Assembly: GCA_964019135.1 (NCBI GenBank)
Contig: OZ025248.1
Coordinates: 36,139,670 to 36,203,669, forward strand
Length of the DNA: 64,000 nt
From: Arenicola marina
Taxonomy: Eukaryota > Annelida > Polychaeta > Arenicolidae
Direction of reading: 5' to 3'
A model generated the notes under the pieces. That model did not search any database and had not been told where the DNA came from. It worked only from the letters and a program-made list of their open reading frames with translations. Positions 25,488 to 31,284 of the stretch are shown in pieces; positions within the stretch are counted from its first letter, which is position 1, and each line of letters opens with the position of its first letter. Both the position numbers and the translations under genes were made by a program.

Positions 25488-25520
25488 TTCGTCAAGGCTA
25501 TGGAGGACAGGAGTAAGACG
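25488..25520 (+). CDS. CPT1: CPT1 exon 3' end, first copy (11 codons) with donor
   Basis: These bases encode [11 protein letters not shown] and are followed by GTGAGT. The peptide matches the conserved CPT1 segment just before the exon at 31,729 (human CPT1A, from memory, has FVRAMVDPAQT there). The phase is 0. Sixty-four further copies follow at 90-bp spacing, so it is not certain which copy is the working exon end. The expected upstream CPT1 residues are not recognisable left of this copy, so the exon either starts nearby or its left part has been rearranged. Confidence 0.65.
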
Positions 25521-28500
25521 GTGAGTCCCTGCACAACTAGACCTGCACCGGATATATTGTGGTCAAACTGGAGGGCCTTCGTCAAGGCTATGGAAGACAG
25601 GAGTAAGACGGTGAGTCCCTGCACAACTAGACCTGGACCTGATATATTGTGGTCAAACTGGAGGACCTTCGTCAAGGCTATGGAGGACAGGACTAAGACG
25701 GCGAGTCCCTGCACAACTAGACCTGGACCGGATATATTGTGGTCAAACTGGAGGGACTTCGTCAAGGCTATGGAGGACAGGAGTAAGATGGTGAGTCCCT
25801 GCACAACTAGACCTGGACCTAATATATTGTGGTCAAACTGGAGGGCCTTCGTCAAGGCTATGGAGGACAGGAGTAAGACGGTGAGTCCCTGCACAACTAG
25901 ACGTGGACCTGATATATTGTGGTCAAACTGGAGGGCCTTCGTCAAGGCTATGGAGGACAGGGGTAAGATGGTGAGTCCCTGCACAACTAGACCTGGACCG
26001 GATATATTGTGGTCAAACTGGAGGGCCTTCGTCAAGGCTGCGGAAGACAGGAGTAAGACGGTTAGTCCCTGCACAACTAGATCTGGACCTGATATATTGT
26101 GGTCAAACTGGAGGGCCTTCGTCAAGGCTATGGAGGACAGGAGTAAGATGGTGAGTCCCTGCACAACTAGACCTGGACCTAATATATTGTGGTCAAACTG
26201 GAGGGCCTTCGTCAAGGCTATGGAGGACAGGAGTAAGACGGTGAGTCCCTGCACAACTAGACCTGGACCGGATATATTGTGGTCAAACTGGAGGGCCTTC
26301 GTCAAGGCTATGGAGGACAGGAGTAAGACGGTGAGTCCCTGTACAACTCGACCTGGACCTGATATATTGTGGTCAAACTGGAGGGCCTTCGTCAAGGCTA
26401 TGGAGGACAGGAGTAACACGGTGAGTCCCTGCACAATTAGACCTGGACCGGATATATTGTGGTCAAACTGGGGGGCCTTCGTCAAGGCTATGGAGGACAG
26501 AAGTAAGACGTTGAGTCTCTGCACAACTAGACCTGGACCGGATATATTGTGGTCAAACTGGAGGGCCTTCGTCAAGGCTATGGAAGACAGGAGTAAGACG
26601 GTGAGTCCCTGCACAACTAGACCTGGACCGGATATATTGTGGTCAAACTGGAGGGCCTTCGTCAAGGCTATGGAGGACAGAAGTAAGACGTTGAGTCTCT
26701 GCACAACTAGACCTGGACCGGATATATTGTGGTCAAACTGGAGGGCCTTCGTCAAGGCTATGGAAGACAGGAGTAAGACGGTGAGTCCCTGCACAACTAG
26801 ACCTGGACCGGATATATTGTGGTCAAACTGGAGGGCCTTCGTCAAGGCTATGGAAGACAGGAGTAAGACGGTGAGTCCCTGCACAACTAGACCTGGACCG
26901 GATATATTGTGGTCAAACTGGAGGGCCTTCGTCAAGGCTATGGAGGACAGGCGTAAGACGGTGAGTCCCTGCACAACTAGACCTGGACCGGATATATTGT
27001 GGTCAAACTGGAGGGTCTTCGTCAAGGCTATGGAGGACAGGAGTAGGACGGTGAGTCCCTGCACAACTAGACCTGGACCTAATATATTGTGGTCAAACTG
27101 GAGGGTGTTCGTCAAGGCTATGGAGGACAGGAGTAAGACGGTGAGTCCCTGCACAACTAGACCTGGACCTAATATATTGTGGTCAAACTGGAGGGTCTTC
27201 GTCAAGGCTATGGAGGACAGGAGTAGGACGGTGAGTCCCTGCACAACTAGACCTGGACCGGATATATTGTGGTCAAACTGGAGGGCCTTCGTCAAGGCTA
27301 TGGAGGACAGGAGTAAGACAGTGAGTCCCTGTACAACTAGACCTGGACCGGATATATTGTGGTCAAACTGGAGGGCCTTCGTCAAGGCTATGGAAGACAG
27401 GAGTAAGACGGTGAGTCCCTGCACAACTAGACCTGGACCGGATATATTGTGGTCAAACTGGAGGGCCTTCGCCAAGGCTATGGAGGACAGGAGTAAGACT
27501 GTGAGTCCCTGCACAACTAGACCTGCACCGGATATATTGTGGTCAAACTGGAGGGCCTTCGTCAAGGCTATGGAGGACAGGAGTAAGACGGTAAGTCCCT
27601 GCACAACTAGACCTGGACCTAATATATTGTGGTCAAACTGGAGGGTGTTCGTCAAGGCTATGGAGGACAGGAGTAGGACGGTAAGTCCCTGCACAACTAG
27701 ACCTGGACCTAATATATTGTGGTCAAACTGGAGGGCCTTCGTCAAGGCTATGGAGGACAGGAGTAAGATGGTGAGTCCCTGCACAACTAGACCTGGACCG
27801 GATATATTGTGGTCAAACTGGAGGGCCTTCGTCAAGGCTATGGTGGACAGGAGTAGGACGGTGAGTCCCTGCACAATTAGACCTGGACCTGATATATTGT
27901 GGTCAAACTGGAGGGCCTTCGTCAAGGCTATGGAGGACAGGAGTAAGATGGTGAGTCCCTGCACAACTAGACCTGGACCGGATATATTGTGGTCAAACTG
28001 GAGGGCCTTCGTCAAGGCTATGGAGGACAGGAGTAAGATGGTGAGTCCCTGCACAACTAGACCTGGACCGGATATATTGTGGTCAAACTGGAGGGCCTTC
28101 GTCAAGGCTATGGAAGACAGGAGTAAGACGGTTAGTCCCTGCACAGTTAGATCTGGACCTGATATATTGTGGTCAAACTGGAGGGCCTTCGTCAAGGCTA
28201 TGGAGGACAGGAGTAAGACGGCGAGTCCCTGTACAACTCGACCTGGACCTGATATATTGTGGTCAAACTGGAGGGCCTTCGTCAAGGCTATGGAGGACAG
28301 GAGTAACACGGTGAGTCCCTGCACAACTAGACCTGGACCGGATATATTGTGGTCAAACTGGAGGGCCTTCGTCAAGGCTATGGAAGACAGGAGTAAGACG
28401 GTGAGTCCCTGCACAACTAGACCTGGACCGGATATATTGTGGTCAAACTGGAGGGCCTTCGCCAAGGCTATGGAGGACAGGAGTAAGACTGTGAGTCCCT

Positions 28501-31284
28501 GCACAACTAGACCTGCACCGGATATATTGTGGTCAAACTGGAGGGCCTTCGTCAAGGCTATGGAGGACAGGAGTAAGACGGTAAGTCCCTGCACAACTAG
28601 ACCTGGACCTAATATATTGTGGTCAAACTGGAGGGTGTTCGTCAAGGCTATGGAGGACAGGAGTAGGACGGTAAGTCCCTGCACAACTAGACCTGGACCT
28701 AATATATTGTGGTCAAACTGGAGGGCCTTCGTCAAGGCTATGGAGGACAGGAGTAAGATGGTGAGTCCCTGCACAACTAGACCTGGACCGGATATATTGT
28801 GGTCAAACTGGAGGGCCTTCGTCAAGGCTATGGTGGACAGGAGTAGGACGGTGAGTCCCTGCACAATTAGACCTGGACCTGATATATTGTGGTCAAACTG
28901 GAGGGCCTTCGTCAAGGCTATGGAGGACAGGAGTAAGATGGTGAGTCCCTGCACAACTAGACCTGGACCGGATCTATTGTGGTCAAACTGGAGGGCCTTC
29001 GTCAAGGCTATGGAGGACAGGAGTAAGATGGTGAGTCCCTGCACAACTAGACCTGGACCGGATATATTGTGGTCAAACTGGAGGGCCTTCGTCAAGGCTA
29101 TGGAAGACAGGAGTAAGACGGTTAGTCCCTGCACAGTTAGATCTGGACCTGATATATTGTGGTCAAACTGGAGGGCCTTCGTCAAGGCTATGGAGGACAG
29201 GAGTAAGATGGTGAGTCCCTGCACAACTAGACCTGGACCTAATATATTGTGGTCAAACTGGAGGGCCTTCGTCAAGGCTATGGAGGACAGGAGTAAGACG
29301 GTGGGTCCCTGCACAACTAGACCTGGACCGGATATATTGTGGTCAAACTGGAGGGCCTTCGTCAAGGCTATGGAGGACAGGAGTAAGACGGCGAGTCCCT
29401 GTACAACTCGACCTGGACCTGATATATTGTGGTCAAACTGGAGGGCCTTCGTCAAGGCTATGGAGGACAGGAGTAACACGGTGAGTCCCTGCACAACTAG
29501 ACCTGGACCGGATATATTGTGGTCAAACTGGAGGGCCTTCGTCAAAGCTATGGAGGACAGGAGTAACACGGTGAGTCCCTGCACAATTAGACCTGGACCG
29601 GATATATTGTGGTCAAACTGGGGGGCCTTCGTCAAGGCTATGGAGGACAGAAGTAAGACGGTGAGTCTCTGCACAACTAGACCTGGACCGGATATATTGT
29701 GGTCAAACTGGAGGGCCTTCGTCAAGGCTATGGAAGACAGGAGTAAGACGGTGAGTCCCTGCACAACTAGACCTGGACCGGATATATTGTGGTCAAACTG
29801 GAGGGCCTTCGTCAAGGCTATGGAGGACAGGCGTAAGACGGTGAGTCCCTGCACAACTAGACCTGGACCGGATATATTGTGGTCAAACTGGAGGGTCTTC
29901 GTCAAGGCTATGGAGGACAGGAGTAGGACGGTGAGTCCCTGCACAACTAGACCTGGACCTAATATATTGTGGTCAAACTGGAGGGTCTTCGTCAAGGCTA
30001 TGGAGGACAGGAGTAAGACGGTGAGTCCCTGCACAACTAGACCTGGACCTAATATATTGTGGTCAAACTGGAGGGTCTTCGTCAAGGCTATGGAGGACAG
30101 GAGTAGGACGGTGAGTTCCTGCACAACTAGACCTGGACCTAATATATTGTGGTCAAACTGGAGGGTCTTCGTCAAGGCTATGGAGGACAGGAGTAAGACG
30201 GTGAGTCCCTGCACAACTAGACCTGGACCGGATATATTGTGGTCAAACTGGAGGGCCTTCGTCAAGGCTATGGAGGACAGGAGTAAGACAGTGAGTCCCT
30301 GTACAACTAGACCTGGACCGGATATATTGTGGTCAAACTGGAGGGCCTTCGTCAAGGCTATGGAAGACAGGAGTAAGACGGTGAGTCCCTGCACAACTAG
30401 ACCTGGACCGGATATATTGTGGTCAAACTGGAGGGCCTTCGCCAAGGCTATGGAAGACAGGAGTAAGACTGAGTCCCTGCACAACTAGACCTGCACCGGA
30501 TATATTGTGGTCAAACTGAAGGGCCTTCGTCAAGGCTATGGAGGACAGGAGTAAGACGGTAAGTCCCTGCACAACTAGACCTGGACCTAATATATTGTGG
30601 TCAAACTGGAGGGTGTTCGTCAAGGCTATGGAGGACAGGAGTAGGACGGTGAGTCCCTGCACAACTAGACCTGGACCTAATATATTGTGGTCAAACTGGA
30701 GGGTCTTCGTCAAGGCTATGGAGGACAGGCGTAAGACGGTGAGTCCCTGCACAATTAGACCTGGACCTAATATATTGTGGTCAAACTGGAGGGTGTTCGT
30801 CAAGGCTATGGAGGACAGGAGTAAGACGGTGAGTCCCTGCACAACTAGACCTGCACCTGATATATTGTGGTCAAACTGGAGGGCCTTCGTCAAGGCTATG
30901 GAGGACAGGCGTAAGACGGTGAGTCCCTGCACAACTAGACCTGGACCTAATATATTGTGGTCAAACTGGAGGGTGTTCGTCAAGGCTATGGAGGACAGGA
31001 GTAGGACGGTGAGTCCCTGCACAACTAGACCTGGACCTAATATATTGTGGTCAAACTGGAGGGCCTTCGTCAAGGCTATGGAGGACAGGCGTAAGACGGT
31101 GAGTCCCTGCACAATTAGACCTGGACCTAATATATTGTGGTCAAACTGGAGGGTCTTCGTCAAGGCTATGGAGGACAGGAGTAAGACGGTGAGTCCCTGC
31201 ACAACTAGACCTGGACCGGATATATTGTGGTCAAACTGGAGGGCCTTCGTCAAGGCTATGGAGGACAGGAGTAAGACGGTGAGT
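25488..31284. repeat. 90-bp minisatellite carrying CPT1 exon end plus splice donor, 65 donor positions
   Basis: Each 90-bp unit contains 36 exon-like bases (A)[11 protein letters not shown], then GTGAGTCCCTGCACAACTAG and about 34 more bases up to the next copy. Donor positions run from 25,521 to 31,279 in steps of 90. One unit near 30,470 has lost the two bases of its GT; all others seen keep GT, mostly GTGAGT with GTAAGT, GTTAGT and GTGGGT variants. The unit length is a multiple of three, so a plus frame (30-residue repeat) and a minus frame both stay open for more than 1,660 codons. The last copy leaves the array at 31,279 as GTGAGTCTTTGG, and an intron of 450 bp leads to the next CPT1 exon. 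Confidence 0.95.

Follow-up and report, generated by a model that had tools for sequence, protein, structure and literature searches.

A 64,000-nucleotide stretch of the Arenicola marina genome (C1:36139670-36203669; hereafter the window) contains a 90-bp minisatellite, each unit of which carries the end of an exon of the carnitine acyltransferase gene CPT1 together with the 5′ splice site (donor) that follows it. A search of the whole assembly (867 Mb, 762 contigs) located a second array of this unit in an intact-looking CPT1 gene that spans C1:36074841 to about 36100790, shares the strand of the window copy and lies approximately 73 kb upstream, beyond the window. Taken together, it is likely that a minisatellite has grown passively on a splice site of this gene, that the donor nearest to the exon is the one used, and that the array in the window is a relic of a partial duplication.

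The amplified CPT1 exon end in the window

The minisatellite of the window is a single array (Table 1), in which Tandem Repeats Finder (TRF) counted 64.4 copies with 95% matches. Cutting the array unit by unit gave 65 copies of an element of 39-40 nt, which consists of 11 CPT1 codons and a GTGAGT-type donor (TTCGTCAAGGCTATGGAGGACAGGAGTAAGACG followed by GTGAGT), separated by 64 spacers of 51 nt each. Sixty-three units have a length of 90 nt and one (unit 56) has a length of 88 nt, and the final copy is partial. Both procedures agree with the first-pass annotation of this DNA, which had described a CPT1 exon end repeated 65 times together with its 5′ splice site. Only its figure of 64 usable-looking GT sites was slightly high, as an in-register GT is kept by 59 of the 65 elements (GTRAGT in 55 of 65). 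The others carry GC (three), a shifted site (two; ACGTTGAGT) or a deletion (one). Units 22-27 are identical to units 33-38, a run of six units that recurs 11 units further on and is a sign of an internal block duplication.

The exon downstream of the array had been assigned to CPT1 as well. This assignment is borne out by a match to the Pfam family Carn_acyltransf (E 2.4e-15) and by 75% identity to human CPT1A over 65 aligned residues. When the 11 codons of the element are joined to this exon, the resulting peptide aligns without gaps to the solved carnitine acetyltransferase 1nm8 (FVKAMDDSSVTEHQKVELL; E 1.1e-4, the sole match). Since the junction peptide is free of gaps and the following exon is of the CPT1 type, the element represents an exon end followed by its own 5′ splice site. 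The earlier placement of the element's peptide at the end of the preceding CPT1 segment is thus supported by this alignment and also by the gene described below, in which the exon ends within unit 1. Further convincing CPT1 exons were not found in the 64-kb window (tblastn, E up to 10), nor was any CPT1-like sequence seen to the left of the first unit when the three frames were inspected by eye. A search of the whole window against Rfam at the gathering threshold gave no matches.

Array and exon are connected by the tail of a CPT1 intron. Compared with the gene, 213 of 216 aligned positions are identical in its non-repeat part (5 gap columns) and 216 of 224 in its repeat part (17 gap columns). 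The tail also contains motifs of the sequence TTGAT, which resemble branch points and number 21 here and 24 in the gene copy. As they are short and carried by the repeat, they are no evidence of branch-point use.

The upstream CPT1 gene and the origin of the window copy

The 63-residue exon of the window has a second genome copy at C1:36098570-36098758, in the upstream gene. Most of human CPT1A is covered by collinear matches in this gene, with residues 414-430 and 468-475 having no match of their own. Exon edges set from the protein matches and by eye fell exactly on GT at 12 of the 19 donor sides and exactly on AG at 7 of the 19 acceptor sides of the introns, and are unrefined for the remainder. 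Both the array-bearing exon and the exon following it have exact GT and AG. The former (36093919-36094053, 135 nt) is preceded by CCCGCAG, ends in ACG/GTGAGT and is flanked on either side by further CPT1 exons in the proper order. Unit 1 begins at 36094021 and thus takes in the last 33 nt of this exon, and from there 46 elements extend to 36098110. Reading through the first donor leads to a TAG at 36094117, in unit 2, and in-frame stops are present in 6 of the 45 full units. A genome search with the 90-bp unit, in which very common words are skipped, returned 111 matches, all of them at these two arrays and equal to the expected 65 + 46. The gene furthermore contains two versions of one exon at C1:36088617-36088682 (ADAPISAHLWEDTLYKDMFELG) and C1:36091802-36091866 (ADAPIMGHLWECAMADEHHMG), locus L004, looking like mutually exclusive exons. 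A similar pair of alternative exons is present in fly CPT1.

Correspondence between the window fragment and the gene begins with the opening base of a unit and extends 2 nt beyond the next exon. The fragment lacks the 5′ part of the array-bearing exon, and with the gene stretch 36098761-36103094 the last three CPT1 exons are missing from it as well. A location of the window array inside a working CPT1 gene was ruled out, since no exon is attached to it and no downstream exons follow. Regarding the earlier proposal that the splice-donor region itself was amplified, the unit and its origin are confirmed, but 65 donors within a working CPT1 gene and beside their exon are not what the window holds: every copy is separated from the remainder of the exon, and the following CPT1 exons are absent. 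Missing parts of a working gene and a parent located some 73 kb upstream characterize a duplicated pseudogene fragment. The window copy is a partial duplicate and apparently a dead relic with no evident function.

Among the distinct variants of the two arrays (29 in the gene, 37 in the window), 14 are common to both, which makes it probable that several units already existed at the time of the copying. The arrays contain 36 and 28 distinct unit types, of which they have only 4 in common, implying that both have turned over since the copying. Their copy number also differs within this one assembly (46 in the gene vs. 65 in the window). At the right junction, a short CCCAA is common to both sides of the join. 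At the left junction, the array sets in with the very first base of a unit. The left flank itself matched the unit no better than shuffled sequence did (173 of 300 shuffles for 200 nt, 18 of 300 for 100 nt, 298 of 300 for 400 nt). For the right flank the match was weak (8 of 300 shuffles for 100 nt, 4 of 300 for 200 nt), and it is not relied on here.

Table 1. Features of the window around the minisatellite and their coordinates.
Position	Strand	Feature	Remarks	Basis
24389..25485	+	Left flank	90% identity to C1:36242201-36243299; no CPT1 array or sequence follows there	
25488..31285	+	90-bp minisatellite	65 elements and 64 spacers	TRF and unit cutting
25488..25526	+	First element copy	TTCGTC...ACG/GTGAGT; unrelated flank meets the array just before	
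30438..30525	+	Unit 56	88 nt; donor minus two bases; interrupts the long open frame	
31246..31285	+	Final partial element copy	Intron sequence shared with the gene's post-array intron comes next	
31286..31728	+	CPT1 intron tail	Acceptor TATCCAG at its end	
31504..31714	+	T-rich 16/36-bp minisatellite	Stops 14 nt short of the exon	
31729..31917	+	CPT1 exon	NAERISLLQ...RLSTSQ; 188/189 nt the same as in the gene's exon	
31921..33374	+	Right flank	92% identity to C1:36103095-36104503 (downstream of the CPT1 gene); junction directly at the exon end	

Other duplicated sequences occur in this region. Three kinds of minisatellites are found in one order at positions 7581-9227 of the window and again at 61270-63149, about 53.6 kb apart, as part of a local web of segmental duplications. 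Just left of the window, a 6.9-kb stretch is present twice (C1:36117457-36124329 and C1:36131537-36138418), 14 kb apart and with 97.9% identity.

Donor choice and competing explanations

According to the reading we favor, a minisatellite would have arisen over a CPT1 exon-intron border, taking in the 3′ end of the exon and the first part of the intron, and its 90-bp unit would have been amplified by repeat slippage or unequal exchange. With the array already multi-copy, a fragment comprising array, intron tail and next exon would then have been copied. In the gene, the first donor alone would be used productively, because it adjoins the 135-nt exon, exon definition favoring the donor beside an exon, and because with any later donor the message would include the stop codon of unit 2. 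As inert intron, these later donors of the gene would be tolerated, and the relic in the window would have kept turning over and losing donors. Counted by codon position (1/2/3), the variants within the 11 codons number 4/1/4 for the gene array and 3/6/6 for the window array, with no clear codon-position bias, and neither array appears to show clear protein constraint on the codons of the element.

Several observations weigh against this reading. GTGAGT is kept in 46 of 46 elements of the gene, whereas 6 of the 65 donors in the window are lost and others are changed. Likewise, none of the 29 distinct variants of the gene array falls on donor positions +1 to +6, compared to 5 of the 37 in the window, a difference that is not significant (Fisher P 0.06) and becomes no stronger when private variants are considered (P 0.14, not significant). 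The start of the fragment exactly at a repeat start is a feature for which passive growth offers no explanation. Finally, identity to the gene reaches approximately 99% in the fragment, as against 90% and 92% between the sequences directly beside it and their partners. With this difference, the fragment is more than a mere piece of the older segmental duplication, and we infer that it may have been copied, or homogenized, later than the segmental duplications surrounding it.

The state of the donors weakly hints that the later donors of the gene might be kept for a reason. They could provide a reservoir for U1 binding, or switch splicing to an unproductive mode and thereby lower CPT1 output, a function that would go along with the intact donors of the gene compared to the detached copy and with the premature stop encountered from any later donor. 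However, the statistics given above are marginal, the chance of finding no variation in the six donor columns is 0.11 given 27 variable columns, and a young or homogenized array would have the same appearance, so that we regard a function of the later donors as unlikely. An assembly artifact, in which a haplotype copy or a chimeric join put a second CPT1 piece into the window, would account for the high identity between fragment and gene as well as for a left junction exactly on a repeat edge, a typical place for a misjoin. Yet the unit variants and their order differ strongly between the two arrays, and the sequence beyond both junctions has its own partners elsewhere on the chromosome, which makes such an error rather improbable.

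It may further be asked whether the window array encodes a long repetitive protein, as its 30-codon unit is free of stops and an open frame of 1,699 codons extends from 25389 to 30488. The translation of this frame as a whole even matches Pfam SPMIP8 (E 1.2e-22, 81 bits, cut-off 27) and, below the cut-off of 22, GARIL_Rab2_bd (E 2.5e-4, 21.6 bits). Both scores, however, add up over the repeats, and none of the individual stretches passes by itself; the reverse strand is open too, over 1,668 codons, as expected of a stop-free unit with a length divisible by three. In addition, the long frame is broken at unit 56, stops are present in the sister array of the gene, and the variants lack the codon-position bias expected to be seen in a coding repeat. 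A coding role was accordingly ruled out on the two open strands, the frameshift and the stops, and is the least credible of the explanations considered here.

Splice-site arrays in related genes and in other organisms

Of the 236 kb examined, 26% consists of minisatellites with a period of at least 7, and within the CPT1 gene their share is 48%. Three of the 19 CPT1 introns consist of minisatellite sequence to 95-99%, and a 21-bp array in one of these begins at the second base of the intron. Arrays at splice sites were also observed in other carnitine acyltransferase genes. At C12 (minus strand, L043 and L053), the array comes after an exon ending in ...KAMRDLSVP and has 88 units (25 bp each), which start with GTGAGTACT and carry GT in 60 and GC in 21 of the 88 donors. 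The exon after this array begins with DQERYRLL, and, aligned by eye, the intron appears to have the same position as the array-bearing intron of CPT1, with an unrelated repeat. Further upstream in the same locus, a 34-bp repeat of about 2.5 copies places CTACCAG and GTAAGT around six exon-like bases. At C19, an exon ending in ISTSS has its donor followed by 14 units of 30 bp, 12 of which start with GT.

A repeated acceptor was found at C5 (minus strand, L028 and L052), where 45 units of 46 bp span the acceptor and 25 nt of the exon start (MYALGRTE), a start point that by eye is common to two more paralogues, L024 and L026. Only 10 of the 45 units have AG at the acceptor, the others having GG (33), CG (1) or TG (1). 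The column holding the A of AG deviates from its commonest base (G) in 12 of 45 units, compared to 11 in the next column, and all four bases are seen in it. GG is what the most frequent unit carries, so that most of the missing AGs could go back to a single early change that was then amplified.

The frequency of such arrangements was surveyed at the edges of 25 non-CPT1 carnitine acyltransferase exons, obtained from 30 loci cut out of 53 matches after exclusion of the five CPT1 and window loci; stop codons occur in 3 of these 25 matches. An array (period of at least 10, at least 3 copies) had its edge within 45 nt of the exon edge in 8 of 50 cases, whereas rotation within the locus gave a mean of 2.4 (P 0.0015). 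This P value is generous because rotation ignores that arrays avoid exons, and the survey edges are those of profile matches, i.e., putative splice sites, in one gene family with some overlapping loci. It is therefore only tentatively that we put forward a broader reading, less probable than not, in which splice sites are the preferred starting points of minisatellite growth in this animal and much of its intron sequence has this origin. Many genes would then carry tandem donors or acceptors by the dozen, with extra donors downstream of the true one being tolerated and extra acceptors upstream of the true one being mutated away.

Tandem repeats over exon-intron boundaries that multiply a splice site are known from amphioxus as mirages, and the arrays described here resemble them in this respect. 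The reports on them name Adh3, the globins BflGb6 and BflGb9, PGBD5 and troponin C as affected, with mirages at both 5′ and 3′ exon boundaries and units of 10-160 bp in Adh3 and the globins (PMC3087553; PMC3902484). They were reported there not to disturb splicing (PMC3087553; PMC3902484), which includes Adh3 and the globins studied by reverse transcription polymerase chain reaction (PMC3087553). The reading of the later CPT1 donors as inert intron fits these reports. The comparison with mirages, drawn already in the first-pass annotation, is apt for the gene: its unit lies over an exon-intron boundary, and its first repeat, within exon 36093919-36094053, is continuous with an authentic exon. 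In the window this continuity is missing, so that the window array is classed as a copy derived from a mirage rather than a mirage itself. The copy numbers of 46, 65, about 88 and 45 found here contrast with 6 and 3 units in the two haplotypes of BflGb6 and a triplication in PGBD5, and the open-licence literature yielded no report of an array at this scale. A further difference is that one array here stands apart from its gene and that independent arrays are present in several members of one gene family. A search for the Pfam family GFP, of which amphioxus has many members, gave 0 hits; this result does not demonstrate absence and is weak evidence against amphioxus as the source of the DNA.

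Introns in Cryptococcus were gained through repeat expansion (PMC2395259), a case in which splice signals inside a gene were likewise multiplied by tandem repeats. There, however, introns themselves were multiplied, whereas the copies here appear unused and no new intron is seen. In Drosophila, spurious AG is avoided upstream of acceptors (PMC10946897). The C5 array, in which AG is lost in 35 of 45 units, is in line with such selection against early AG, although it is a single array, most of whose loss could also be explained by one change and its amplification.

Apart from these genes, the assembly contains contigs (C443, C465, C504, C330 and C652) with kinase matches interrupted by in-frame TAA and TAG and by no TGA, which presumably derive from an organism with a ciliate-type code. 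At C5:5402476-5437356, five equal-scoring kinase matches with a spacing of about 8.5 kb probably represent a recent tandem cluster.

Duplicated splice sites have been used in experiments, and the 46 near-identical, strong-looking donors in a conserved gene amount to a natural version of such an experiment. Should the first donor alone be used, position relative to the exon decides; should others be used, the gene leaks. If minisatellites indeed grow from splice sites, the genome would have set up, by accident and on a genome-wide scale, a test of the choice that the spliceosome makes among identical sites. The contrast between extra donors that are intact in CPT1 (46 of 46) and extra acceptors that are mostly broken in one paralogue (35 of 45 without AG) is a lead and not a rule, the C12 donor array being less clean (GT in 60 of 88). 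Growth of this kind would provide a route for the lengthening of introns and the multiplication of splice sites.

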